Source of the DNA: Clostridia bacterium
GTDB taxonomy: Bacteria; Bacillota_A; Clostridia; Christensenellales; Aristaeellaceae
Assembly (NCBI GenBank): GCA_017509065.1
Contig: JAFWQM010000003.1
Span: 1-13,408 of the forward strand
DNA: 13,408 nt
Reading direction: 5' to 3'
A program made the position numbers and the translations under genes. Each line of letters opens with the position of its first letter. Within the stretch, counting starts at the first letter, position 1. The notes beneath the pieces are model-generated. The model ran no database searches and had not been told where the DNA came from. It saw only the letters and a list, made by a program, of their open reading frames with translations. Shown piece by piece: positions 1,804 to 13,408 of this stretch.

Positions 1804-3672
1804 TCATCCCTCGAAAATGCTGATCTCAACATGCTTTCCGCTGAAAGCCACGCCATACTGCGTAATCGCATCAACTCCCTGACTGCGCATTTCTTCGGCG
1901 TATTTCTTCTCCGCGATTTGCCGCAATGCTTGATCAGCAAGCGCTTTCAACTTGTCCTGTTCGGCATTTTTCTCAGCCTTCAGTTCAAAGATAAAGCCTG
2001 GATCCTCTGGCCTCCTAGGCATCAGCTGAATGTCATAGCGCCTTTCGCCGGATTCCCGATTTGAAGTCAGTGTATAGCGATCACTGAAAAGGACGCAAAG
2101 TCCCAGGATCAGGCCATGATAAAAGGTTTCCTTAGCCGTGTCATAGTAGCTTACCGATTCACGCAGCAGCTTTTCCAGAAGCATCTTCAAACGAAGTGTA
2201 TCGTTGCTATAAATGGATTCCTGTATGGAAATGGCAAGGGATTGCGGAACGATCGGCTCCAGCTTTGAGAGGATTTCTTTGTTATAGACAAATGAAATCT
2301 CTTTATTTGGCAAGGACACTCTGCACATAAAATCACCGGAGGGTGCATAGGCCGTTTCTTCCGCTTTCAGGTATCCAGCCACCAGCAAAAAGCTGTATAT
2401 CGAGGAAGGATTCTTTTGAATTTGCGGATAAATCACGCTCGTATCCACATATGTCAGGAAAGACTCGCGTTGCAGAAGAGAATGAAGTCGCTCAAAGATC
2501 TCTTCATCGGCAAGCGACAGGATTTCTCCAATCACTTCGTTGCTTCCGGTTGACAGCCAATAAGGCCCCGGCTTACAGGCATTGCTGAAGTAATTCACGA
2601 CTGACCATGGATTGAAAATTTCAGTATGTCCGAAATGATAGCCATCATACCAATCGCAGATTTCATCGTACCGATCCGGTACCGCGTAGTACTCAGTCAT
2701 CTCTTTGACTTCTTTCGCAGTAAAGCCAAAGTATTCGCTGTACTTATCGTCCAGAATAGAATTGATTTTCAGATTGTTCAGACCGCTGAAAATACTTTCC
2801 TTCGCCACACGCAGGATGCCTGTCAGGAATCCGTATTTCAGATGCTTGTTATCTTTGAAAACACCGGAGAAAAGATTCCGAATAAAGAGCACAACCTCAT
2901 CGTAAAAGCCGCAGGAATATCCTTGCTGAATCGGCGTATCATATTCATCAATGATGACAATCGGCTCTATTCCATGAAATTCATGCAGCATTTTGGCCAA
3001 CATCATCAGGGACAGCATAAAATCGTTACCGGAGGCCTGGCCGGAGATCACCTTATGGAAGAAATCCTGATCGGGATTCGTATCCGAGTCAAGCTCAGAA
3101 TGGCGCTTGTATTCAATAACGATCAGCTTCGAGATCAGATCATATGTTTCTACCCATGAGGTGCATTTCACATCCTTGAAGGAAAGAAATATGATGGGAT
3201 ATTTTCCCTGATGATCACGGTATACTTTGCCGCATTTCCAGATTTTCTTATCCGTGAAATAACGGGAAGTATCCTCATCGGTTTTCTCAAAGAAAGTTCT
3301 CAGCATATCCATGTTGAGTGTTTTGCCAAAGCGCCGGGGACGGGTAAACAAAGAAACCATCGGAACTTCATCGAGAAAGTCACGGATCATTAATGTCTTG
3401 TCAATATAATAATACTCTGTAGATGCCTTTCGATAGTCAGAAATGCCAATGGGTAAAGGGAGGAGCTTTTTTGTACGCGATGTTATTTCAGAATTGACTG
3501 AGCCAGATTTGCGCCTTCCATCTGCGGGGTACTGCGCATCCTCTGGTATCATCCATGCTCCTTTGATCTTTTGCACACCTGCAATTCGTCCGTCCCTGCA
3601 CAGTCTTGCAAGCAAGGACTTGGAGATTCCCCATTGCGCTGCAGCATCCTGAATGTTCAGCCATTCAGCCAA
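1804..3672 (-). CDS. HTH + AAA-ATPase-like + PD-(D/E)XK nuclease-like protein
   Basis: A 622-residue protein. Residues 1-55 form an excisionase/MerR-like winged HTH (WLNIQDAAAQWGISKSLLAR, then GRIAGVQKIKGAWMIPEDA). Residues ~70-360 match the AAA-ATPase_like family: P-loop TRPRRFGKT (110-118) and Walker B PIVIIDEYDTP (237-247). The C-terminal ~120 residues resemble the PDDEXK_9 nuclease-like domain, with ERRYDIQL (D547) and FELK (E563, K565). The ATPase-plus-nuclease pair is abundant in gut bacteria and has no settled function; the N-terminal HTH is the less usual part. I chose TTG at 3672 because GGAGG lies 8 nt before it; GTG at 3681 is in frame but touches the Shine-Dalgarno. A sigma-A-type promoter lies just upstream. 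No transmembrane segments. A role in mobile-element biology or defence is inference only. Confidence 0.85.
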   Translation of the reverse strand: MAEWLNIQDAAAQWGISKSLLARLCRDGRIAGVQKIKGAWMIPEDAQYPADGRRKSGSVNSEITSRTKKLLPLPIGISDYRKASTEYYYIDKTLMIRDFLDEVPMVSLFTRPRRFGKTLNMDMLRTFFEKTDEDTSRYFTDKKIWKCGKVYRDHQGKYPIIFLSFKDVKCTSWVETYDLISKLIVIEYKRHSELDSDTNPDQDFFHKVISGQASGNDFMLSLMMLAKMLHEFHGIEPIVIIDEYDTPIQQGYSCGFYDEVVLFIRNLFSGVFKDNKHLKYGFLTGILRVAKESIFSGLNNLKINSILDDKYSEYFGFTAKEVKEMTEYYAVPDRYDEICDWYDGYHFGHTEIFNPWSVVNYFSNACKPGPYWLSTGSNEVIGEILSLADEEIFERLHSLLQRESFLTYVDTSVIYPQIQKNPSSIYSFLLVAGYLKAEETAYAPSGDFMCRVSLPNKEISFVYNKEILSKLEPIVPQSLAISIQESIYSNDTLRLKMLLEKLLRESVSYYDTAKETFYHGLILGLCVLFSDRYTLTSNRESGERRYDIQLMPRRPEDPGFIFELKAEKNAEQDKLKALADQALRQIAEKKYAEEMRSQGVDAITQYGVAFSGKHVEISIFEG

Positions 3673-3701
3673 AGTGTTCACCTCCCCAATGAGTTATCAC
3701 T

Positions 3702-4755: not shown

Positions 4756-5034
4756 ATCATCAACATAGGTAACAGATTTGCCAATGCCTATCGCCTTCGT
4801 TAGAAAAATTGCCTTTTTTCACCTTCCGAAAATGCGGCGGACGGCCCGAAGGAATCATATTAAGGTGAAGTGTGGCTGAAAAACGGCTTCACGTAAGGAC
4901 TTTCTCAGAAACTGCCAGAGGTCTGTCATCACCCTGAAAAGCTTGTTATTAGTTGGATTTCTAATCTCCAGTGCCATTAGCAGCCATAATTGCTGCAAAT
5001 TTTGGCGGACAACGATGCAAAGAAAGGCGGAAGG
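4756..5034. other. Intergenic region with inverted repeat and one CTAATTTTGGCG-type motif
   Basis: It contains TTCACCTT (4818-4825) facing AAGGTGAA (4862-4869), a small hairpin GCAGC/GCTGC and a copy of the motif also seen right of the ATPase (4996-5022). No gene or clear terminator for the ATPase was found here. Confidence 0.5.
4996..5022 (+). repeat. Motif copy 1, just past the ATPase stop
   Basis: CAAATTTTGGCGGAC then AACGATGCAAAG. It matches the copies at 6540, 6957 and 6979 with a 3-nt insertion, and begins 13 nt beyond the ATPase stop codon. Confidence 0.55.
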
Positions 5035-6294
5035 TCAGATATACCACACCGGGATTTGGAACAGATTATCTCTGAGCATTCCTGGGGCAGGACATGTGCA
5101 TATGATGGCTCCGGTTCCACGCTTTTTTTCATTGACTTTGTCGAGAACGGGGAAGGCAGATGCTTCATCAGCGCTGACTTTTGTCCCTTGTTTGATCTCG
5201 ATTGGGTAGAGTATCCCGTTTTCTTCGATAATCAGATCAATCTCGCTCTCGACTTCGACGGTCTCACCATTCTTTTTTACTTTTTTCTTGTCGCGGCCCC
5301 TGTAATAGGACACGCAGTAACGATAATCAATCCCTCTGTTGGAATAGGACTTTAGAATCTCTGAAATGACAAAGGTTTCAAAGAACGCGCCACTCATAGC
5401 TCCATTTGCCAATGTATCCGGGGTAAGCCAGCGAGTAAGATATGCTGCAAGCCCGGTATCACGGAAATAAACCTTAGGACTCTTGATAGCACGGTTCAAA
5501 ACACTTGGCATATATGCCTCGAGCAGATACACAATTCCAGATGCTTCCAGAATGGACATCCACGCCTTCACTGTTGTCTGATCCTTGCCGATCTCATCAG
5601 CAATATTGCTGTAGTTAACAATCTGTCCGGTTCGCGCGGCAACAGCGACCATGAAGCGTCTGAAATCATTCAGATCCTGGACGGCTGTCAGTTTACGCAC
5701 GTCTCTCTCCAGATAGGTTTTCACATAGCTGGAGAAAAACATGCCCCATTCTACTTCCGGATCCTGCAGCGCGGGATACCCGCCCCGATGAATTCTCTCC
5801 CAAATATTTGCTGGTACGATGACGCTTTGACTGCGCTCTTTGATGTAATCCATCGTAGGAACGAAAGGAAGCGTGAAGGAATCACGATCAATCTCGCGCT
5901 GGGACAAAGGCGCGAGTTCAATGATACCGACTCTTCCTGCCAGCGATTCGGAGGCTTTCTCCATCAGTTCCAGAGGTTGTGAACCTGACAGACAAAATTG
6001 GGCTTTCTCGTCTGACGCGTCACAGGCAATTTTGATGTAGCGAAACAGATCCGGCGCTCTCTGAACTTCATCATAGATGACTGGTGGTGGGTTGAGCATC
6101 ATGAACATATTGGGATTGCTGTTTGCTTGTTCCTCTATGAACGGATCGTCAATGAGAACATACTTTTTGTCAGGAAACAGTTCTTTTATCATTTTTGTTT
6201 TCCCGGTTTGCCGTGCTCCGGTAATGAGAATGCTTTTAAATGTTTTTTCAGAATGCGAAACAATGTCTTCGATGGCTCTTTTGATGTAGTCCAT
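5035..6294 (-). CDS. AAA_14/DUF4143 ATP-binding protein
   Basis: Intact 419-residue protein of the AAA_14 + DUF4143 family. The N-terminal ATPase has Walker A GARQTGKT (26-33), Walker B PVIYDEVQRAP (71-81) and a sensor-like CLSGSQ (101-106). Around 190-260 there is a helical, winged-helix-like part (NYSNIADEIGKDQTTVKAWM). The C-terminal DUF4143 ends in a PD-(D/E)XK-like core: ESEIDLII (D353) and YPIEIKQG (E366, K368). Length is normal for the family. Start ATG 6294 has GAGG about 7 nt upstream. Such proteins are common in gut and mobile DNA; proposed roles in defence or element maintenance are not established. It has its own promoter bracketed by two palindromes and stands apart from its neighbours, so it is probably monocistronic. 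Confidence 0.9.
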   Translation of the reverse strand: MDYIKRAIEDIVSHSEKTFKSILITGARQTGKTKMIKELFPDKKYVLIDDPFIEEQANSNPNMFMMLNPPPVIYDEVQRAPDLFRYIKIACDASDEKAQFCLSGSQPLELMEKASESLAGRVGIIELAPLSQREIDRDSFTLPFVPTMDYIKERSQSVIVPANIWERIHRGGYPALQDPEVEWGMFFSSYVKTYLERDVRKLTAVQDLNDFRRFMVAVAARTGQIVNYSNIADEIGKDQTTVKAWMSILEASGIVYLLEAYMPSVLNRAIKSPKVYFRDTGLAAYLTRWLTPDTLANGAMSGAFFETFVISEILKSYSNRGIDYRYCVSYYRGRDKKKVKKNGETVEVESEIDLIIEENGILYPIEIKQGTKVSADEASAFPVLDKVNEKKRGTGAIICTCPAPGMLRDNLFQIPVWYI

Positions 6295-6311
6295 TTCAAA
6301 TCCTCGCTTTC

Positions 6312-6342
6312 GACAAATCTGGGATTGAATCCCGGATTTGCC
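6312..6342. promoter_or_regulatory. Palindrome A between -10 box and ATPase start (candidate operator)
   Basis: AAATCTGGGATT and AATCCCGGATTT form 12-bp arms with a single mismatch around one central base, extended by GAC and GCC. It lies immediately downstream of the -10 box, where a bound protein would block transcription, or a hairpin in the leader RNA would form. Confidence 0.6.
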
Positions 6343-6345
6343 ATC

Positions 6346-6374
6346 ATTATAACATCATGTATCGAAAAGCACAA
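6346..6374 (-). promoter_or_regulatory. Sigma-A-type promoter of the AAA_14 ATPase
   Basis: On the minus strand -35 TTGTGC (6369-6374), 17-nt spacer, perfect -10 TATAAT (6346-6351). The start codon lies 51 nt further on at 6294. Confidence 0.7.
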
Positions 6375-6385
6375 GAGAGAATATT

Positions 6386-6416
6386 GACAAATCTGGGATC
6401 GGTTCCTGGAATTGCC
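6386..6416. promoter_or_regulatory. Palindrome B upstream of the -35 box (second copy of A)
   Basis: Begins with the same GACAAATCTGGGAT as palindrome A and matches it at 26 of 31 positions in the same orientation, 74 bp away. The promoter lies entirely between the two copies. Confidence 0.55.
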
Positions 6417-6489
6417 AGACCTCCTGCAGTCCTTATTATGCTCGATGCGGTACTATTGTATGCCGCCATGATGTTTAATAATACTAAAC

Positions 6490-6507
6490 TCAAATCCGGA
6501 ATTTGAC
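6490..6507. repeat. Shorter palindrome related to A and B
   Basis: TCAAATCCGGAATTTGAC, a near-perfect palindrome built from the same CAAATCC / GGATTTG half-sites. It lies a further ~100 bp upstream of the ATPase promoter. Confidence 0.4.
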
Positions 6508-6538
6508 GTTTTTTCAAAAACATGATATCGGTCATCCT

Positions 6539-6587
6539 GCTAATTTTGGCGAACGATGCGGGAAAATGTCCCACCGCCAAAATTAGC
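6539..6587. repeat. Strong hairpin containing motif copy 2
   Basis: Perfect 13-bp arms GCTAATTTTGGCG (6539-6551) and CGCCAAAATTAGC (6575-6587). The 23-nt loop has its own GGGA..TCCC stem. The left arm plus loop is motif copy 2 (6540-6559). It is followed by a short tandem GCTAATCGC (6591, 6602). No T-run follows, so it is not a standard terminator. Confidence 0.7.
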
Positions 6588-6729
6588 TCTGCTAATCGCT
6601 TGCTAATCGCACCAGGGTAAAAGAGGTGGTTTTTGGAGGAAATGCGAACAACCGGAAATCGTTAGAAACCCAGTAATATCAAGCATTTGCGGGCACTTGG
6701 AGGGTACTGGAGGCGAACGCTTTTTTCCT

Positions 6730-6774
6730 CTCCTAAGCGGAACGTCGCGCGTTCGAATCGCGCCGGGATCGCCA
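6730..6774 (+). tRNA. 3' half of tRNA-Arg(CCT); 5' half absent (att footprint)
   Basis: The bases fit a tRNA from position 32 to the end with canonical lengths: anticodon loop CTCCTAA (6730-6736, anticodon CCT at 6732-6734), 3' anticodon stem GCGGA, 5-nt variable region ACGTC, T arm GCGCG-TTCGAAT-CGCGC (6747-6763), acceptor strand CGGGATC (6764-6770), discriminator G and encoded CCA (6772-6774). The bases 5' of the loop (TTCCT and a T-run) do not pair with GCGGA, and the expected 5' acceptor GATCCCG is nowhere upstream. This is therefore a tRNA fragment, not a functional gene. Such 3' fragments are the usual product of tyrosine-integrase insertion into a tRNA gene. Confidence 0.7.
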
Positions 6775-6777
6775 TTT

Positions 6778-6845
6778 TCCTACCAGAATCGACGGATTTG
6801 CCCCGAAAAAGGCAGCCGTGAAGCTGGTAGGATTTTTCTTTTTCA
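6778..6845 (+). terminator. Terminator of the tRNA transcript
   Basis: TCCTACCAG (6778-6786) and CTGGTAGGA (6824-6832) form a perfect 9-bp stem with an internally structured loop, followed by TTTTTCTTTTT. It starts 4 nt after the tRNA CCA, as expected for the native tRNA terminator. Confidence 0.75.
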
Positions 6846-6863
6846 AAGCTCTAGTGAACGCAA

Positions 6864-6901
6864 AAATCTGCTAACACCGGAAAGCTTTCATTAGCAGATT
6901 T
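6864..6901. repeat. Hairpin AAATCTGCTAA / TTAGCAGATTT
   Basis: Perfect 11-bp inverted repeat (6864-6874 and 6891-6901) with a 16-nt loop containing GAAAGCTTTC. TCTAAATTTTTTAG follows. It could be a second plus-strand terminator or part of the nearby repeat family, which also uses TTAGCAG/CTGCTAA. Confidence 0.5.
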
Positions 6902-6956
6902 CTAAATTTTTTAGCCTGATTTCTAATTGCCTCTCATCAATGTTCTGCTTCGGCGT

Positions 6957-6998
6957 CTAATTTTTTCGAACGATCGTGCTAAATCTGGCGGACGATGC
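6957..6998 (+). repeat. Motif copies 3 and 4 in tandem
   Basis: CTAATTTTTTCGAACGATCG (6957-6976) and CTAAATCTGGCGGACGATGC (6979-6998), start-to-start 22 bp, same orientation as the copies at 6540 and 4996. Confidence 0.55.
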
Positions 6999-7243
6999 AA
7001 GCGGTGTTTTCCCCCTAACCTGAAAAGCTGCCTGTAAGTCCTTGAGTTTGAGAACTTCGTGAATGAAGATCAGACGAACCGCCAGAGGGTTTTGATTGGC
7101 CCTTACTGCCACCTTTCTATTCTAACGGTATGAAAAAACCTGGCAAGGCTGTCGAAGCTTGGTAGTATAAACAAGGTCGTTATTCTACCTTATCCCCATC
7201 GATGGTCCAATGGACGTTTCATGATTGCTTTAGATAACAAATC
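6999..7243. other. Gene-free stretch right of the repeat cluster
   Basis: Nothing convincing. A 51-codon minus-strand frame from GTG 7112 runs into the repeat at 6957 and looks spurious. A T-rich, low-GC composition continues to about 7240, where the GC-rich operon DNA begins. Confidence 0.4.
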
Positions 7244-7273
7244 CTCCCGATCACCGGCTTCGATGATCGGGAG
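7244..7273. terminator. Hairpin at the end of the right-hand operon
   Basis: Perfect 10-bp stem CTCCCGATCA (7244-7253) and TGATCGGGAG (7264-7273), loop 10 nt. On the minus strand it is followed by GATTTGTTA, a weak T-tract. The current stop codon of the ABC remnant (7251-7253) lies inside the stem, suggesting the original stop was upstream and the terminator is the operon's own. Confidence 0.5.
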
Positions 7274-8050
7274 TTGATTTTCTATGCTTTTTGCGCAGGT
7301 TATTCAAAACGCGATCCGCAGATCTCGCAATCTTCCAGGAAGCAGCCTCCTGCCCGCCTTCCACGAAAGATTTGTAGATGCCGTCTTTCTTTATCAGATC
7401 ATCGTGGGTTCCGCTCTGGGCGATATGACCGTTATCAACGACGAAAATCTGGTCGGCATGACGCACGGTTTTCAGGCGATGGGCGATCATAATGATAGTC
7501 TTCTCTTTCGTCAGTTCCTCAATGGCTTCGGTGAGTTCCGTTTCGTTCTCCGGGTCCACATTGGCGGTGGCTTCGTCCAGGATGATGATGGGCGCGTCCT
7601 TCATGATGGCCCGGGCAATGGAAATGCGCTGCTTTTCGCCGCCGGACAGGCTGGCCCCACCTTCGCCGATGATGGTATCATAGCCATCCGGCAAGGCCAT
7701 GATGAAGTCATGGCAGCGGGCTTTTTTCGCCGCTTCGATTACCTTTTCCATGGGTGCGTTCGGCTCGCCGAAGCGGTATTGTTGGCGATAGTACCAGGCC
7801 GCCATATGCGCCAGGTAATTACTCAGGAACCGGAACAGGATGCGCAGCAGATACAGCCCGATCAGGATCAGCGTCAGGGTGACCATCCTGCGCATGCCCG
7901 CGTCGTCCAACCGCGCTTCACAATGCCCGTCATGGCCGAAAGCGCCTTCGGCGCGGCCAGATTGACTGCGGTCAGGCCCAGCGTGGACAGGATCGCCACG
8001 ATGTAAAGACCCTTGTACCGCTTGGCTTCGCGGCTCAGCCGCCACAGCAT
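7251..8050 (-). pseudogene. ABC exporter (fused permease-ATPase) with deletion and frameshifts
   Basis: The gene starts at ATG 8050 with AAAGGAG upstream, overlapping the xylanase stop by 16 nt. It reads MLWRLSREAKRYKGLYIVAI and a first membrane helix, then loses one base near 7912 (…GIVKRG | LDDAGMRRM). It continues with a second helix (TLTLILIGLYLLRILFRF) to MAAWYY, then jumps near 7785-7791 straight to RFGEPNAPMEKVIEAAKKA of the nucleotide-binding domain. Roughly half the normal ~580 residues are missing, including Walker A and the Q-loop. The rest of the ATPase is preserved: signature LSGGEKQR, Walker B IIILDEAT, switch His in IAHRL. The C-terminus runs on past the expected end (after SWKI) into the terminator hairpin. 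It cannot bind ATP normally or form a transporter. Confidence 0.85.
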
Positions 8051-9318
8051 TTTCTTGGTTTCTCCTTTGCACCACTCCCGCTGAGCGCGTCATCCTTATC
8101 TTCCGAAAGTGTCAATGTGTCCGTCCTGTCTTCGGTGAGGGCAAAGGATGCGCTGCCACAGCTTGTTTTCAACGCATAGTTGCCCTTGAAGCCTTCCAGG
8201 GTGATCCATCCGTCCGAATCAGTGTTCAGCGTACGATGCGTCTCCCACGCGCCGTGGATCAGTTCTTTCAGCGCGGCGTAGGAAGGTTTCTCGCTGTTGT
8301 CCTCCCGGACGAAGCCGGAAGGCGCTTTGAGCCAGCAGCCGTCGCTGAAATCCCAGGTGGTGACAGCCTCCACCAGCGGATGGGCGAACAGTACAGAATA
8401 CATTTCGCTGATCTCCCGGGCCTGACGTTCCTCACCCCCCGGCGTGCTGGGCCAGGCGTCCACCTGCCAGTCATTCAGATCCACGATGTGGGCGGGCATG
8501 ATTTTTCCCGAAATCAGGGTGTTTTCGGTAAAGTGGATCGGCAGGCCGAAGAGGGAGAAGCGCGAAAGTACGTTTTGCAGCTTTTCCAGTCCCCAATAGC
8601 CCTGATGCTGATGGCTCTGGATGCCGATGGCACCGATGGGCACATCCGCTTCCAGCAGTTCTTCAATCAGGTGTTCATAGGGCGGGCTGGTGTTAAAATC
8701 GTTGATGAGCAGCACGGCCTCCGGGTCACTCTCCTTGGCCGCCGCAAAGACCTCCTTCACCAGCGGGACGCGGCCCAGCTCCTTGCAGATGCGGGTAATG
8801 GCGTTATCATACCGGTCGAACACCGGCATGATGACCACCTCGTTGATCACGTCCCATAATCCGATCACGTCCCGGAAAGCTGTTACGTCCCGATGGATGC
8901 GGGCCAGCTGGCGGCGGAGGATTTCATCGTTGTTGTACTGCATGAGCCAGTTTGCGCAGGCGGTGTGCCAGCACAGGGGATGGCCCTTCACTGTTACATT
9001 CCGTTCCCGCAGCCATTTTGCCGCCGCCATGGTTTCAGGATAGGCCGTTTTCCCTTCCACGGGCTCATACCGCCCCCAATAAAAGGGCAGCGTGCCGTAA
9101 TTGAACAATTTCAGCCATTTTTCCATGCGTTCCCGGAGAAAGGCTTTTTTCTGTTCATCCTCTGTTTTCATCATCGCCACGGTATCAAAGGCGCCGCAGC
9201 CAAACAGGAATTGGTGGGACACTTGATCCGCCTGAACGGGGCAGTTCGTCGCGGGGGTCCCGTCCGGGTTGAGAAGCCGCAAACGGGCGCTTGCCCGGCG
9301 GAAAGCCAATTGGTCCAT
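8035..9318 (-). CDS. GH10 endo-1,4-beta-xylanase, no signal peptide
   Basis: 427 residues from ATG 9318, with GGAGG and AGGAAAC upstream; an in-frame TTG at 9333 lies before the Shine-Dalgarno and is rejected. GH10 enzymes cut beta-1,4-xylan or xylo-oligosaccharides with retention. Visible landmarks: GHPLCWH (112-118), acid/base Glu160 in WDVINE, QSHQHQG (234-240), nucleophile Glu265 in IHFTEN and TTWDFSDGCWL (320-330). Residues 1-35 are an N-terminal beta segment (ARLRLLNPDGTPA). From ~365 there is a short beta-like tail ending in KEKPRKCCGG. No signal peptide, cell-wall anchor or clear binding module is seen, so it is probably cytoplasmic and would act on imported oligosaccharides. It starts 15 nt after the dehydrogenase stop and overlaps the ABC remnant, so it belongs to the operon. 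Confidence 0.93.
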   Translation of the reverse strand: MDQLAFRRASARLRLLNPDGTPATNCPVQADQVSHQFLFGCGAFDTVAMMKTEDEQKKAFLRERMEKWLKLFNYGTLPFYWGRYEPVEGKTAYPETMAAAKWLRERNVTVKGHPLCWHTACANWLMQYNNDEILRRQLARIHRDVTAFRDVIGLWDVINEVVIMPVFDRYDNAITRICKELGRVPLVKEVFAAAKESDPEAVLLINDFNTSPPYEHLIEELLEADVPIGAIGIQSHQHQGYWGLEKLQNVLSRFSLFGLPIHFTENTLISGKIMPAHIVDLNDWQVDAWPSTPGGEERQAREISEMYSVLFAHPLVEAVTTWDFSDGCWLKAPSGFVREDNSEKPSYAALKELIHGAWETHRTLNTDSDGWITLEGFKGNYALKTSCGSASFALTEDRTDTLTLSEDKDDALSGSGAKEKPRKCCGG

Positions 9319-9333
9319 GTTTCCTGCCTCCAA

Positions 9334-10509
9334 TCAAAGCATCATCCTGTAAATCCTGGCGCAGTCCCCTTCATCCAGCGTCACAAAGCCGGAAATGGTT
9401 CCCTGTCTGCCGTCGCCCCGGCACAGGGCCTGCACCAGCGCGGGAATGTCCTCCTCCTTCGCGCCCAGCTCCCTGAAACTGATGGGCATGCCCAGGGACT
9501 TGAGGAACTGCCTGAGCTTTTCGATGCCCTCCTTCGCCGTGACCTCGGGATGGGCAAAATCCATCTGGCAGCCCCACACCCGTACGGCAACCTGGGCAAA
9601 GCGCATCACGTCGTGATCCATGACGTAGGTGAACACCGCCGGCATGGTCACCGCCAGGCCCGCGCCGTGGGCGCAGTCGTACAGGGCGGAAAGCTCGTGC
9701 TCGATGTTGTGGCTGTTCCAGTCCTGGCTGCGGCCCACGCCGCAGGAATTGTTGTGGGCCATCATGCCGGCCCACATGATGTTTGCGCGGGCGTCGTAGT
9801 TGTCAGGATCGGCAATCACGCGGGGGCCCTCGTGAATCATGGTGAGCAGCAGCGCTTCGATGAGCCGGTCAGTGACTTCCACCTCTTTGGTGTTGGTGAG
9901 GTAGCGCTCATAGAGGTGCGCCATGATGTCGGTGATGCCCGCGGCGGTCTGGTAAGGCGGCAGGGTCTGGGTCAGGGCGGGATTCAGGATGGAGAACTTC
10001 GGGCGGATGGCGTCGCCGCTGGCTCCGCGCTTGAACATGCCCTCCTCGCGGGTGATCACGCTGTCCGGGCTGCCCTCGCTGCCGGCGGCGGCGATGGTGA
10101 GCACGGTGCCCACAAGCAGGGCGTTTTCAATGGGCCTGCCGCTGTAAAAATCCCAGAAATCCCCGTCATAGACCGTTCCGGCTGCGATGGCCTTGGAAGA
10201 ATCGATGGCGCTGCCGCCGCCCACCGCCAGGACGAAGTCAATCTTTTCCCGGCGGCACAGTTCGATACCTTCATACACCAGCCCGCTGCGGGGATTGGGC
10301 TGCACTCCGCCCAGCAGGAAATACGGGATGCCCGCCGCCTCCAGCGAGGCCTTTACCCGGCCGATGAGCCCGGAGCGCACGGCGCTGCCGCCGCCGTAAT
10401 GAATCAGCACCCGGGTGCCGCCGAAGCGCCTGATCAGGCTCCCTGCCTGGTTTTCGGCATCCCTGCCGAAGGCGAAATATGTGGGCGAATAAAAAACGAA
10501 GTTATTCAT
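9334..10509 (-). CDS. yqhD: Iron/zinc-containing alcohol dehydrogenase (YqhD/BdhA type)
   Basis: 391 residues, normal for group III metal-dependent alcohol dehydrogenases that reduce aldehydes with NAD(P)H. ATG 10509 is chosen because GGGAGG lies 7 nt upstream; ATG 10515 is only 1 nt from it. The nucleotide-binding loop is GGGSAIDSSKAIA (97-109). The metal ligands fall at Asp194 and His198 (DIMAH), His267 (SHNIEH) and His281 (CAHGAGLA), which as far as I recall are the same positions as in E. coli YqhD. The N-terminus (MNNFVFYSPTYFAFG) is also typical of the YqhD/butanol dehydrogenase branch. Cofactor preference (NADPH or NADH) cannot be decided here. The symbol indicates family resemblance only. 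It lies after the SDR with an 82-nt gap containing a hairpin, and directly before the xylanase. Confidence 0.92.
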   Translation of the reverse strand: MNNFVFYSPTYFAFGRDAENQAGSLIRRFGGTRVLIHYGGGSAVRSGLIGRVKASLEAAGIPYFLLGGVQPNPRSGLVYEGIELCRREKIDFVLAVGGGSAIDSSKAIAAGTVYDGDFWDFYSGRPIENALLVGTVLTIAAAGSEGSPDSVITREEGMFKRGASGDAIRPKFSILNPALTQTLPPYQTAAGITDIMAHLYERYLTNTKEVEVTDRLIEALLLTMIHEGPRVIADPDNYDARANIMWAGMMAHNNSCGVGRSQDWNSHNIEHELSALYDCAHGAGLAVTMPAVFTYVMDHDVMRFAQVAVRVWGCQMDFAHPEVTAKEGIEKLRQFLKSLGMPISFRELGAKEEDIPALVQALCRGDGRQGTISGFVTLDEGDCARIYRMML

Positions 10510-10522
10510 GGTCATTCCTCCC

Positions 10523-10542
10523 GGGCCGTTCGGAGACGGCCC
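10523..10542. promoter_or_regulatory. Hairpin just upstream of the dehydrogenase ribosome binding site
   Basis: GGGCCGT (10523-10529) and ACGGCCC (10536-10542) form a 7-bp stem with a 6-nt loop, abutting the GGGAGG site. No T-run follows, so it is not a terminator. It may set mRNA stability or translation within the operon. Confidence 0.4.
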
Positions 10543-10591
10543 TTGTCATCGGTCCTGTGGGAACGGACGCCCCGATCTGCATCAGCAGAGA

Positions 10592-11338
10592 TCAGTAAGG
10601 GCTCTGGAAGCTGCTCTCCGCCTTTTGTACCGCATCCTCCAGGGTCATTCCGGCGAAGGATTGCGCGCCGAGGTTTCGGCCGGATTTGCCGTCGTTCACA
10701 AACACGCCGACAACAATGCCGGGAATGGCGCTCTCCGGGGCATTCGGCGCGTGCTGTCCTCCCAGATCGGTGCGGCACCAGCCCGGATCAGTCAGGTTGA
10801 TCAGCACGTCTGTGCCCTGTACTTTCGAACCGAGATCAATCGTAATCTTATTCAAAGCAGCCTTGCTGGCAGAGTAACCTGCCTGACAAACATCCAGCGC
10901 GATTCCGCTGGTGGTGTTGAGGATCCGTCCGGAACCCCGGGCCATCATGCCCGGCAGAAAATGATAGCAGATCATGGCCGGAGCAATGGTGTTGACCCGG
11001 AAACTGATCTCGTAATCCTCCGCGGGAGTGCGCAGATAATCCGTCCGGTAGGCGATTTGAAGTCCCGCGTTGTTCAGCACAATGTCCACCGGTACGCCCA
11101 GGGCATCGATCTCAGACAGCATCGCTTCGACCGCCCCAAGGTCGTTCAGATCAGCCGCCACCGCATGCGCCTGCACGCCTTTGGCACGCGCTTCCCCAAC
11201 GATTTTCTCGGTGTGAGCAAGGCTTCGGCTGTGAAGAATCAGGTTGCAGCCCTGGTCCGCCATGAATTGTGCCGTCAGATAACCGATCCCCCGGGCCGCC
11301 CCGGTGATCAGTGCCCATTTCCCTTTTACCTGGTACAT
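10592..11338 (-). CDS. Short-chain dehydrogenase/reductase (classical SDR)
   Basis: 248 residues, a normal classical SDR. It has the Rossmann motif TGAARGIG (12-19), NNAG (89-92), and the catalytic Ser144 with Tyr155-x-x-x-Lys159 (YSASK), then DPGWCRT (184-190). ATG 11338 follows AAGGAG with 8 nt spacing and lies 11 nt after the nitroreductase stop, so the two are translated from one message. SDRs of this kind interconvert alcohols and ketones with NAD(P)(H); the HSRS after the second strand (36-39) hints at NADPH but is not decisive. The C-terminal ~25 residues (LGAQSFAGMTLEDAVQ) are not diagnostic. Substrate unknown. Confidence 0.9.
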   Translation of the reverse strand: MYQVKGKWALITGAARGIGYLTAQFMADQGCNLILHSRSLAHTEKIVGEARAKGVQAHAVAADLNDLGAVEAMLSEIDALGVPVDIVLNNAGLQIAYRTDYLRTPAEDYEISFRVNTIAPAMICYHFLPGMMARGSGRILNTTSGIALDVCQAGYSASKAALNKITIDLGSKVQGTDVLINLTDPGWCRTDLGGQHAPNAPESAIPGIVVGVFVNDGKSGRNLGAQSFAGMTLEDAVQKAESSFQSPY

Positions 11339-11349
11339 GGTTCTTCTCC

Positions 11350-11868
11350 TTATACTTTGTAAATGTAATGGTCCTTGCGGGGAGCGGGGGCCTTGGGCTC
11401 CTGGGCGGCATAGCCGAGAATGCAGTGGCCGATGCCCTCATAATCCCCTTCGATCCCCAGGGAGCGCAGCAGAGCCTTTCCTTCTTCACTGTCAAATTCT
11501 TCCTTTGCCCGGTGGATCCAGCAGCTGGCGATCCCCAGGGCATGGGCGGCATTCATCAGGTTCCCCATGACCAGGCTGCCGTCATAGAGGTATGTCCCGA
11601 TCCTGCGGTCTGCCAGGACGACGATCAGGTTGGGCGCGCCATAGAAGGGATCACCTGTGCTTCCCATCACGGCCGCGTTCATACGGGACAGCCGGTCGCG
11701 GGTTTCCTTGTCCGTCACGGCGATCATGATGGGCGACTGGCGTCCCATGCCGGTAGCGGCGTAGCTGCCGGCCTCCAGGATCTGGTTCAGAATTTCCTCC
11801 GGGACGGGATCGGGCCTGTAGCTGCGGCAGCTGCGGCGTTCCATCAGGGTTTTCAGCGCTTCATTCAT
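11350..11868 (-). CDS. Nitroreductase-family FMN oxidoreductase
   Basis: 172 residues from ATG 11868, preceded by GAGGAGG; a longer in-frame start at 11955 has no such site and overlaps the previous gene. The N-terminal MNEALKTLMERRSCRSYRPD carries the FMN phosphate-binding Arg-Arg-Ser...Arg-Ser pattern. The middle has the family's QSPIMIAVTD and YGAPNLIVVLAD strands, then LGIASCWIHRA, and the end is HCILGYAAQEPKAPAPRK. These enzymes are flavin-dependent NAD(P)H reductases of nitroaromatics, quinones, enones or similar acceptors, usually as dimers; the natural substrate is not predictable. It is 47 nt downstream of the VOC gene and 11 nt upstream of the SDR. Confidence 0.9.
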   Translation of the reverse strand: MNEALKTLMERRSCRSYRPDPVPEEILNQILEAGSYAATGMGRQSPIMIAVTDKETRDRLSRMNAAVMGSTGDPFYGAPNLIVVLADRRIGTYLYDGSLVMGNLMNAAHALGIASCWIHRAKEEFDSEEGKALLRSLGIEGDYEGIGHCILGYAAQEPKAPAPRKDHYIYKV

Positions 11869-11915
11869 TGTGTTTTCCTCCTCGCTTGATCGTTGAATCG
11901 TCGTTGATTTCGGGT

Positions 11916-12383
11916 TCACGCCTTTTCGTAGCTTTCCAGAAGCTCCACGATGCATTTGAGCTCCGGCGCGTCCAGATAGTTGTATTCGCCGCTTCCGTCG
12001 CCGTAGATGCCATGCTGAATCAATCTGAGGCCAGCAGCCTCCGCCCTGGCCACCTGGGTTTTAGAATCCCTGACCTGGAAAGCCAGGTGATGCATGCCTT
12101 CGCCGTGCTCGTCCAGGAACTTCCGCCAGGTGGAAGGCGCTTCGTTGGGCTGGATCAGCTCGATCTGCAGGCTCGGCCCCACATCGAAGAAAGCCAGCAG
12201 GGAGTCCGCTTCCGGCGCGGGCTTCCCCTCATACTCGGTGCGGGTGATGGCATAGTCGCCGCATGGCTGCGTTGGAGGCACATCCACCCCCAGGAAAGCC
12301 GCCCATTTCCGTTTTGCTGTTTCGATGTCCCTTACGATGAAGCCCACTTGGGCCACAAGATGCGTTCCGACAATTCCTGCCAT
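11916..12383 (-). CDS. VOC-superfamily (glyoxalase/epimerase-fold) metalloprotein
   Basis: 155 residues from ATG 12383 with GGAGG 9 nt upstream; a start at 12407 lies before this site. The protein has two VOC beta-alpha-beta-beta-beta modules. The first is VAQVGFIVRDIETAKRKWAA with LQIELIQP; the second is GMHHLAFQVRDSKTQVARAE with CIVELLE. Likely metal ligands are a His/Gln near 8-12, Glu75, His98/His99 and Glu148. The general pattern is nearest to methylmalonyl-CoA epimerase and glyoxalase-like proteins, but it is too divergent to name a reaction. In an operon of carbonyl reductases, an isomerase or glyoxalase-like step on an aldehyde or keto compound is plausible (inference). Confidence 0.85.
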   Translation of the reverse strand: MAGIVGTHLVAQVGFIVRDIETAKRKWAAFLGVDVPPTQPCGDYAITRTEYEGKPAPEADSLLAFFDVGPSLQIELIQPNEAPSTWRKFLDEHGEGMHHLAFQVRDSKTQVARAEAAGLRLIQHGIYGDGSGEYNYLDAPELKCIVELLESYEKA

Positions 12384-12414
12384 GTCAGTTTTCCTCCGAT
12401 CTTTCACTTATGGA

Positions 12415-13131
12415 TTACCAGGGATAGGCTTCCCCGGTGTGGGTGATGAAAATGGGGCCGGTTTTGTCGTGCCGCCTGGCTTCAAACAGGAACCGCAGCG
12501 TTTCGGCGTGCTCGTAGGGGTCCAGCGGCGCTTCGTGATTGTCCGGGTTCGTCCGCATCCAGCCGGGGTGAACGCAGAGGATATTCAGGTTCGGATCGTT
12601 TTTGAAATAATTATGCAGCGTCTTTGTCAGCATGTTCAGCGCGGCCTTTTCGGTGCCGTAATCCAGATAGAAGGTACGGTAGCATTTCCCGATGCTTCCG
12701 GCCTCGGAGGAAATGTTGACCACCAGCGCGCCGACTGCGCTTTTCCTCAGCAGCGGCAGGAACGCTTTCAGCACCCGAACCGGGCCTACCGCGCCCACGT
12801 TCACCGCTGGGGCGATCAGGTCCAGGTCGAAATCCGGCAGCTCCTTCATGGTGTCGGCGGAAGCCATGGTGGCGTTGTTGACGATCAGGTCCAGGTGGTC
12901 CGTCAGCTGTCCCGCTTTCCGGGCTGCCGCGTTCACCGATTCCGTGGACGCGATGTCCATGGTGAGGATATACAGACGGTCGGGATTCTCCTTTTTCAGC
13001 GCTTCCAGCGCCTCGGACGGGCGGCGTACGGAAGCAAACACCGTGTCTCCATGCTCCAGGTATCTTTTGACGAGATTGAAGCCCAGGGCGTATGGCCGGC
13101 CTGTTCCGGTGATCAGTACATGCTGTGACAA
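12415..13131 (-). CDS. Short-chain dehydrogenase/reductase (second SDR)
   Basis: 238 residues from TTG 13131, which has GGAGG 8 nt upstream; no better ATG exists before the Rossmann motif. The glycine motif TGTGRPYALG (8-17) is stretched relative to the usual TGxxxGxG. It also has NNAT (85-88) in place of NNAG, ISSEAG with Ser141/Ser142, catalytic Tyr158 and Lys162 (YGTEK), and HPGWMRT. The other operon SDR is clearly only a distant relative, so this is not a recent duplication. It is the first structural gene after the regulator (69-nt gap) and 31 nt before the VOC gene. NAD(P)H-dependent carbonyl reduction is the likely chemistry; substrate unknown. Confidence 0.88.
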   Translation of the reverse strand: MSQHVLITGTGRPYALGFNLVKRYLEHGDTVFASVRRPSEALEALKKENPDRLYILTMDIASTESVNAAARKAGQLTDHLDLIVNNATMASADTMKELPDFDLDLIAPAVNVGAVGPVRVLKAFLPLLRKSAVGALVVNISSEAGSIGKCYRTFYLDYGTEKAALNMLTKTLHNYFKNDPNLNILCVHPGWMRTNPDNHEAPLDPYEHAETLRFLFEARRHDKTGPIFITHTGEAYPW

Positions 13132-13200
13132 CGTGAATTCCTCCTTTGTTTCATGATCCGCTTGATATGCAAGCTGCTATTGTTCCATCCGCAGCGCGCG

Positions 13201-13408
13201 TTATTCTCCCGGAGGTATCCCCTTTTCCGCATGGAACACGCGGTTGAAGCTGGAGATGCTCTGAAACCCGGACAGCATGGCCACCTCCGTCATGGTTTTT
13301 TCCTTGTCCGCCAGCAGCTCCGTCGCCTTTTCCAGCCGGATCATGTTGAGCCACTTGCTGTAGTTCATCCCGGTCACGCTGCGAAAGATCCTGGAGAAAT
13401 ACTCCTTG
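13201..13408 (-). CDS. AraC-family transcriptional regulator, C-terminal part (partial)
   Basis: The last 69 codons of an AraC/XylS-type regulator; the rest is beyond the right edge. The double-HTH DNA-binding domain is clear: YFSRIFRSVTGMNYSKWLN, MIRLEKATELLADKEKTMTE, VAMLSGFQSISSFNRVFHAE. The second helix pair with GFQS.SSFNRVF is the family signature. The stop (13201-13203) comes right after KGIPPGE, a few residues earlier than usual. It is on the same strand and directly ahead of the oxidoreductase genes, so it may head the operon or control it from its own transcript. The 69-nt gap holds a small hairpin GCTTG/CAAGC but no promoter I would vouch for. Confidence 0.88.
   Translation of the reverse strand, partial: KEYFSRIFRSVTGMNYSKWLNMIRLEKATELLADKEKTMTEVAMLSGFQSISSFNRVFHAEKGIPPGE

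Follow-up and report, generated by a model that had tools for sequence, protein, structure and literature searches.

Integron gene cassettes, which are small and encode no recombinase themselves, are captured serially at one platform, and tycheposons are tRNA-associated cargo elements of marine and freshwater bacteria. The elements proposed here would resemble tycheposons, as these are generally described, in their tRNA-associated cargo; unlike integron cassettes, they would use as the platform a tRNA gene brought by each element, and their insertion would nest. According to excerpts of the Islander paper (PMC4383910), islands that tyrosine integrases insert into tRNA genes leave fragments beside a complete tRNA, and excerpts of PMC9897764 likewise describe element-derived tRNA fragments beside a complete tRNA. 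The locus analyzed here shares with the Islander islands, as these excerpts present them, a tRNA target, a possible crossover in the anticodon loop, a displaced 3' fragment and tandem arrangements, but differs in that the whole tRNA appears to travel inside the element and both old halves stay, whereas in the Islander islands the gene is restored by a fragment carried in attP (PMC4383910). A displaced tRNA fragment at one end and a crossover at a known sub-site of the tRNA, both typical of tRNA-integrated islands, are found; however, instead of the single fragment that is left when an attP fragment restores the target, the relatives keep both halves together with a whole mobile tRNA. In the nearest such case, an archaeal tRNA-Thr locus, excerpts of PMC3293823 describe a short insertion that, as here, leaves a 5' tRNA fragment upstream of a tRNA gene; that insertion differs in its archaeal tRNA-Thr target and in the recombinase-like gene beside the tRNA, and the excerpts mention neither 3' halves nor arms common to several species. 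The titles and abstracts of open PMC papers describe no element that brings a complete substitute tRNA while both halves of the old gene persist; on this open literature, the arrangement is therefore classed as a previously undescribed variant of tRNA-targeting integrative elements.

The window (the whole analyzed stretch of 13,408 nucleotides) contains at 6730-6774, on the forward strand, the 3' half of a tRNA-Arg(CCT) gene, CTCCTAAGCGGAACGTCGCGCGTTCGAATCGCGCCGGGATCGCCA, whose 45 bases begin where the anticodon loop begins and end with the CCA. The 7-base anticodon loop, CTCCTAA, is followed by GCGGA, the 3' anticodon strand, by a variable region of 5 bases, by a T arm with TTCGAAT enclosed by a perfect 5-bp stem, and by CGGGATC, the 3' acceptor strand, with the discriminator G and CCA. 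The sequence-only reading had recognized such a half, without its 5' counterpart and with a good terminator 4 nt after the CCA, and each of these points is borne out. In addition to the canonical segment lengths, a scan of genome_contigs finds 16 loci with an exact copy of the first 42 bases, 11 of which are intact tRNA-Arg(CCT) genes according to ARAGORN, confirming that this is a true tRNA half. The 5' half is absent before 6730, and neither ARAGORN nor cmscan reports a tRNA in the whole window; the remaining 5 of the 16 loci (L007, L009, L012, L014 and L019) are half copies as well, with conserved, mutually related non-tRNA DNA immediately left of the break. The Rfam tRNA covariance model applied to 6700-6840 alone scores 13.9 bits (E 1.9), below the gathering score of 29, with the good fit confined to the T arm and acceptor end, as half a tRNA should give. 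The terminator hairpin, CCTACCAG...CTGGTAGG, with a T-run behind it (6779-6838 with the T-rich tail, forward strand), starts 4 bases past the CCA, and the segment 6775-6842 folds with an energy of -28.6 kcal/mol.

The hosts of the 16 loci are uncultured Clostridia or Clostridiales and one Christensenella sp., with four of the genomes labeled as sheep, goat or roe deer. One genome, G001, contains DNA that is 93% identical to the DUF4143 gene of the window over 1.25 kb, along with three short matches of 70-87%. It was dropped as a candidate close relative of the window host because nothing else is common to the two and the half tRNA, with up to 3 mismatches allowed over 45 bases, occurs in 0 of 60 genomes around G001.

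Here, the two parts of a tRNA gene divided at the core CTCCTAA are called T5 (the 5' half) and T3 (the 3' half). U is the arm that follows T5, RE the arm that precedes T3, and LE the arm behind either a T3 or a whole tRNA. The anticodon stem is TCCGC/GCGGA in allele a and GTCGC/GCGAC in allele b. The T3 of the window, of allele a, lies displaced at a right junction, RE|T3, and its first seven bases (6730-6736, forward strand) form the common core where the crossover is placed. The RE (6537-6729, forward strand), the right-end arm of the left element, contains four GCTAA[CT] repeats that start between 6539 and 6602 and a block, GGAAATGCGAAC / GTTAGAAACCCAGTAAT / GGCGAACGC, that reaches the core; it is 74-79% identical to the corresponding DNA of L007, L009, L012 and L014, in alignments of 195-520 bases. 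The match to L019 (contig C185 of G070, a roe-deer rumen genome) is much longer, with 96.8% identity over 1863 bases including the half tRNA, and defines 4912-6729 as the right-hand part of the left element, common to the window and G070 (L019/L072). On the other side of the T3, 6775-7096 (forward strand), the probable left-end arm (LE) of an outer element, comprises the terminator and the arm beyond it. Six loci with an intact mobile tRNA (L005, L008, L010, L013, L018 and L020) are 78-82% identical to it in alignments of 308-375 bases that take in the half tRNA. The terminator arms that follow half or whole tRNAs are mainly of two types, type T (CCTACCAG...CTGGTAGG), to which the window belongs, and type A (AAAAAGCCCG...CGGGC). 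The sequence-only reading regarded the 3' half as the displaced end of the host gene with its original terminator; this is probably incorrect, given that both the allele and the downstream arm match a mobile tRNA that is 100% identical in six hosts. Because the 3' half carries the allele and the downstream arm of the mobile tRNA, the DNA right of 6775 is likely element DNA, so that the DNA on both sides of the half tRNA is probably mobile. The earlier description of the left-hand DNA as an integrated island is supported in that this DNA ends in the right end of a mobile element.

Repeats of the form GCTAA[ACT] are found 0-5 times per RE (18 sequences; mean in shuffled sequences 0.47), 0-4 times per U (18 sequences; shuffled mean 0.32; none in type T U) and 0-9 times per LE (30 sequences; shuffled mean 0.65). 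Clusters of them mark the ends of elements in the window and in L141, L066, L067 and L072. These repeats may be arm sites of the recombinase. A further cluster, of three GCTAA[CT] motifs, at L072:17632, is remote from any junction found and perhaps marks another element end. The core, which coincides with the anticodon loop, fits the 7-bp overlap that excerpts of PMC8371274 report for tyrosine recombinases.

Each 5' half found upstream of an intact tRNA ends at CTCCTAA and is followed by a U of about 220-260 bases and then by the 5' end of the next tRNA. In six Clostridia genomes (G061, G063, G064, G066, G071 and G072), this arrangement recurs as a type T block that consists of a 5' half cut at the same loop, a 253-base arm, tRNA-Arg(CCT) and the terminator arm, with a core-to-core distance of 292 bases in all six. 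Over the 15 pairs of hosts, identity is 78-97% in T5, 91-100% in U, 100% in the tRNA and 77-99% in LE, as opposed to 18-47% in the 300 bases upstream of the block, i.e., the flanks are unrelated. A protein that we take to be MurC-like is only 41-46% identical between G064 and the other five hosts; this divergence, compared with the near-identity of the block, indicates that the block was transferred horizontally and, with its complete tRNA, occupies different tRNA-Arg(CCT) genes of distant hosts.

A scripted census of junctions in the window and 42 fetched loci yields 16 RE|T3 junctions in 9 genomes and the window, 16 cases of T5 joined to other DNA in 11 genomes, 20 uninterrupted T5|T3 in 18 genomes, and 2 cases of RE joined to other DNA (G063 and G066). 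Each of the 34 split junctions, which come from many assemblies, changes partner at this one 7-base core. The script recognizes RE by the motif GCGAAC, so that the junction on contig C42 of G064 stands outside these counts; it was found through similarity, the DNA before its 3' half being 80% identical to the window RE over 208 bases. In G066, the RE is joined to a U arm, as in an attP, which we read as insertion into a pre-existing RE|T3 site, whereas the case in G063 (C36) is a more distant relative, 68-71% identical to other REs, with a different tRNA 5' half. The U of G068 follows DNA that is neither a recognizable half tRNA nor an RE. The hosts are draft, mostly metagenome-assembled genomes. 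A 3' half behind an RE that pairs with the 5' half was found in 6 of the 11 hosts with T5|U (G062, G063, G064, G066, G070 and G152) but not in the other 5 (G061, G067, G069, G071 and G072). The junction counts are unbalanced, with four RE|T3 versus two T5|other in G063. None of the fetched contigs spans a complete element with its T5|U and RE|T3 junctions, and in the host genomes searched, an intact mobile tRNA never shares a contig with a further 3' half.

The comparison of G064 with its close relative G223 (94% identity in the MurC-like protein), in which the corresponding tRNA is whole, comes nearest to an empty site. The outer 5' half of G064 pairs with the 3' half on C42 at 7 of 7 positions in the acceptor stem and 5 of 5 in the anticodon stem, whereas the five further 3' halves compared reach no more than 5 of 7 in the acceptor stem. 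Contig C4 of G064 is 92.6% identical to G223 over 6133 bases, and the homology ends within 10 bases past the core; contig C42 is 95.5% identical over 3487 bases, and here the homology begins at the core. The site in G223 is not cleanly empty, as 8.7 kb, with a right end of another type and a T3 at its end, separate the intact tRNA from the common right flank. The comparison nevertheless shows that a single native tRNA gene was split into both halves in G064, and the proposal of the sequence-only reading that the half tRNA is an integration scar cut at the anticodon loop agrees both with this break and with the switching of partners at CTCCTAA. G064 carries one intact gene and six further 3' halves. 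Right ends of another kind, e.g., ATATAGGGATTTG and then AAGGTT or a variant of it, stand before 3' halves that have the same core and an allele c or c-like sequence in L135, L136 and L138 (G064), L195 (G223, where the tRNA is whole), L200-L203 and L206; they perhaps belong to ordinary tRNA-restoring elements that use the same hotspot.

Two contigs of G066 have the order predicted if one element inserts into the tRNA of another: C66 reads RE|U_A'-T5b|U_A-T5a|U_T, and C41 reads RE|T3b-LE_A'-RE|T3x-LE_T. In G061, a T5 of allele a precedes the type T block and itself lies behind an older T5, similar to allele b and joined to a U of type A, which we read as an element within an element. The units can be small: on C41 of G066, the 651 bases from LE_A' to the next core contain no stop-to-stop frame of more than 102 codons, and one putative cassette of G066, pieced from two contigs, measures 994 bases. 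On contig C3 of G063, a 3966-base unit lies between two T3; its proteins presumably are a rubrerythrin, a ferredoxin-domain protein and Fur.

The observed halves, arms, junction types, recurring block and break at the core can be combined in the following scheme. The element would form a circle with the attachment site RE|CTCCTAA|U, i.e., two arms around the 7-base core, and would carry beside U a short upstream region, probably the promoter, a complete tRNA-Arg(CCT), its own terminator arm (LE) and then the cargo. A recombinase supplied in trans, most likely a lambda-type tyrosine integrase, would recombine this core with the anticodon loop of the tRNA-Arg(CCT) gene already present. That gene would be cut in two, with the 5' half joined to U at one side and the 3' half to RE at the other, while the tRNA of the element replaces it and provides a new target. 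It is because of this new target that the elements could nest. In the window, the left element, which ends at 6729, would have entered the tRNA carried by a type T element that was there before it, and the 3' half and LE of the latter would make up 6730-7096. We consider it likely that 6537-7096 is such a right junction (attR) and that the site-specific elements nested here each bring a whole tRNA; the half tRNA is then most likely the scar of one mobile element cutting into another that bore a complete tRNA-Arg gene. An intact tRNA-Arg(CCT) is predicted to the left of the window, and the elements may be mobile at present. A wider proposal, which is tentative and somewhat less probable than not, describes tRNA-based gene capture: non-autonomous cassettes, down to about 1 kb in size, that carry a landing platform (a complete tRNA-Arg(CCT) and recombinase-binding arms), are mobilized in trans and nest, would have replaced the resident tRNA-Arg(CCT) of many Clostridia, from the guts of ruminants and elsewhere in the gut habitat, by a single allele that spread horizontally, and would bring in defense systems and metabolic genes.

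These observations also bear on other accounts of the junction. Were the left element a standard tRNA island, carrying only a 3' half that restored the host tRNA further left, 6730-6774 would be the displaced end of the host gene with its terminator and the DNA to the right ordinary chromosome. This is the commonest arrangement, with 3760 islands leaving a 3' fragment versus 159 leaving a 5' fragment in excerpts of the Islander paper (PMC4383910), and the second set of right ends, before the 3' halves similar to allele c and with the tRNA whole in G223, is what such an island yields. However, the 3' half of the window and its downstream arm belong to a block that is found in six hosts with unrelated flanks, and a standard island would leave no 5' half, yet 5' halves joined to other DNA persist in 11 genomes; for the window, this account appears quite improbable. 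A purely accidental origin, by old rearrangements or chimeric assembly without site-specific recombination, is hardly credible: the sources are mostly metagenome assemblies, contigs often stop within a few kb of the junctions, and the window contains apparent gene remnants, but an identical 7-base switch point in 34 split junctions from many assemblies and a relative whose locus matches on both sides speak against it.

The mosaic could also have been built by two independent small elements with the same core, one consisting of a 5' half with the upstream region (about 256-299 bases, from U to T5) and the other of a 3' half with cargo (from LE to RE), which together would produce the arrays. 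Gene-less 5' units of 256-299 bases do occur upstream of intact tRNAs, with a tandem pair in G061 and in G070, the RE|U junctions could arise when the 5' kind enters an RE|T3 site, and the alleles of the 3' halves are only loosely linked to arm types. For instance, T3 of allele b stands before type T arms in G063, G070, G078 and G090 but before a type A arm in G063 as well, G074 combines allele b with an arm similar to type T, and in G108 a U with a start similar to type A lies beside a type T arm. Beside intact tRNAs, in contrast, the types of U and LE mostly match, with U_T and LE_T in six hosts, U_A and LE_A in G062, G067, G068, G069 and G070, and U_A' and LE_A' in G152, G108 being a partial exception; furthermore, a single native gene is split into both halves in G064. 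We regard the two-element account as unlikely and prefer nested elements that carry the whole tRNA.

A search for the recombinase with the profile PF00589 gives 86 matches in the genomes of 8 relatives. Among the 18 contigs of these genomes that carry junctions or mobile tRNAs, 3 have a match, namely, C36 of G063, C1 of G069 (about 13 kb off) and C4 of G064 (about 200 kb off), none of which is tied to the arms or to the elements, themselves incomplete; among the array loci, only L141, L155 and L156 contain one. Of 34 open reading frames picked at PF00589 coordinates in seven genomes, an incomplete set in which at least 3 picks are in the wrong frame, one group spans G061, G062, G064 and G071 (48-70% identity), and we take it to be the housekeeping Xer recombinase. 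In G152, a recombinase-like frame lies 2.8 kb from the intact mobile tRNA; it lacks the N-terminal part and could not be tied to the system. Adjacent tyrosine recombinase genes are present at L155:739-4977 and at L160:1344-4240 and 7234-7596, the three proteins being 84%, 89% and 96% identical between G063 and G070, with the third a fragment of 115 residues; these genes resemble recombinase-in-trio elements. In the stretches fetched around the trios of G063 and G070, there are neither GCTAA clusters nor tRNA genes, and five stretches with recombinase genes (L155, L156, L159, L160 and L161) contain no GCTAA clusters.

A similar 3' half, either inside an intact tRNA or alone, is present in 38 of 150 genomes around G063, with G063 counted. 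Four of the 38 are among G061-G072, and ten of the other 34 were fetched; by our reading, six of these (G074, G078, G090, G108, G132 and G152) have arms of the tRNA-carrying element family, bringing the genomes with such arms to 18 together with G061-G072, and four (G093, G104, G115 and G139) have a plain tRNA. By pattern, no other intact tRNA-Arg(CCT) is detected in 9 of the 11 hosts with a mobile tRNA, all of them drafts, in which a divergent gene could escape such a search. As for a possible prophage or plasmid origin, five exact-pattern scans of viral_contigs, including one with the 42-mer, give 0 matches, a phage collection has no match to the element sequences, and the matches in a plasmid collection amount to 5 records, each covering 48-55 bases over the half tRNA.

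If the preferred reading is correct, a tRNA gene that serves translation itself spreads horizontally as the attachment platform of mobile DNA, the identical tRNA-Arg(CCT) being found in hosts whose MurC-like protein is only 41-46% identical to that of G064. The system would then be a test case for tRNA gene replacement and for the build-up of small elements without a recombinase at one site, and would show a route by which defense genes (BREX, type III restriction) enter uncultured gut bacteria. It also calls for caution, in that a displaced tRNA end is not necessarily that of the host.

Since no element was seen end to end, we infer the cargo membership of each gene near the junctions. On contig C74 of G063, BrxL and PglZ, which belong to BREX, are encoded 6-11 kb downstream of the mobile tRNA, and on C1 of G069, it is followed downstream by type III genes for restriction and methylation, along with an HKD+Snf2 helicase. 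The neighbors of other junctions include glutaminase, AAA_14/DUF4143, flavodoxin, GH125, radical SAM and S-adenosylmethionine synthetase genes, among others. Same-sized reading frames (477 and 379 residues, and others) stand in a row at L066:4137-8824 and L074:1567-9044, in two genomes, the one row near an arm of type T and the other near one of type A; the row in L066 includes radical SAM and S-adenosylmethionine synthetase genes. Judging by frame sizes, this cargo may be common to different element types.

In the window, the gene that adjoins the right end of the left element (5035-6294, reverse strand) encodes an AAA_14 and DUF4143 ATPase, the PADLOC candidate PDC-S01, whose counterpart is the DUF4143 gene of G001 mentioned above. 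Upstream of it, at 6312-6417, a 32-base direct repeat occurs twice, with starts 74 bases apart and 84% identity. A predicted AAA-ATPase with a PD-(D/E)XK nuclease domain (1804-3681, reverse strand) is possible cargo of the same element. On the right, the DNA beyond about 7100 would be cargo of the outer element, as suggested by the LE at 6775-7096; this possible cargo (7251-13408, reverse strand), whose far end would lie beyond the window, encodes a truncated-looking ABC transporter, GH10, an iron alcohol dehydrogenase, two short-chain dehydrogenases, a nitroreductase, a glyoxalase-family protein and a piece of an AraC-type regulator. The ABC transporter gene (7251-8093), a near neighbor of the type T arm, aligns with no more than the latter portion of its domain model. 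Near the left edge of the window, 404-994 encodes a SpaA-like surface protein with a cell-wall anchor motif, and a SpaA-repeat protein is also encoded downstream of the mobile tRNA on C4 of G064 (L071:1025-2743).
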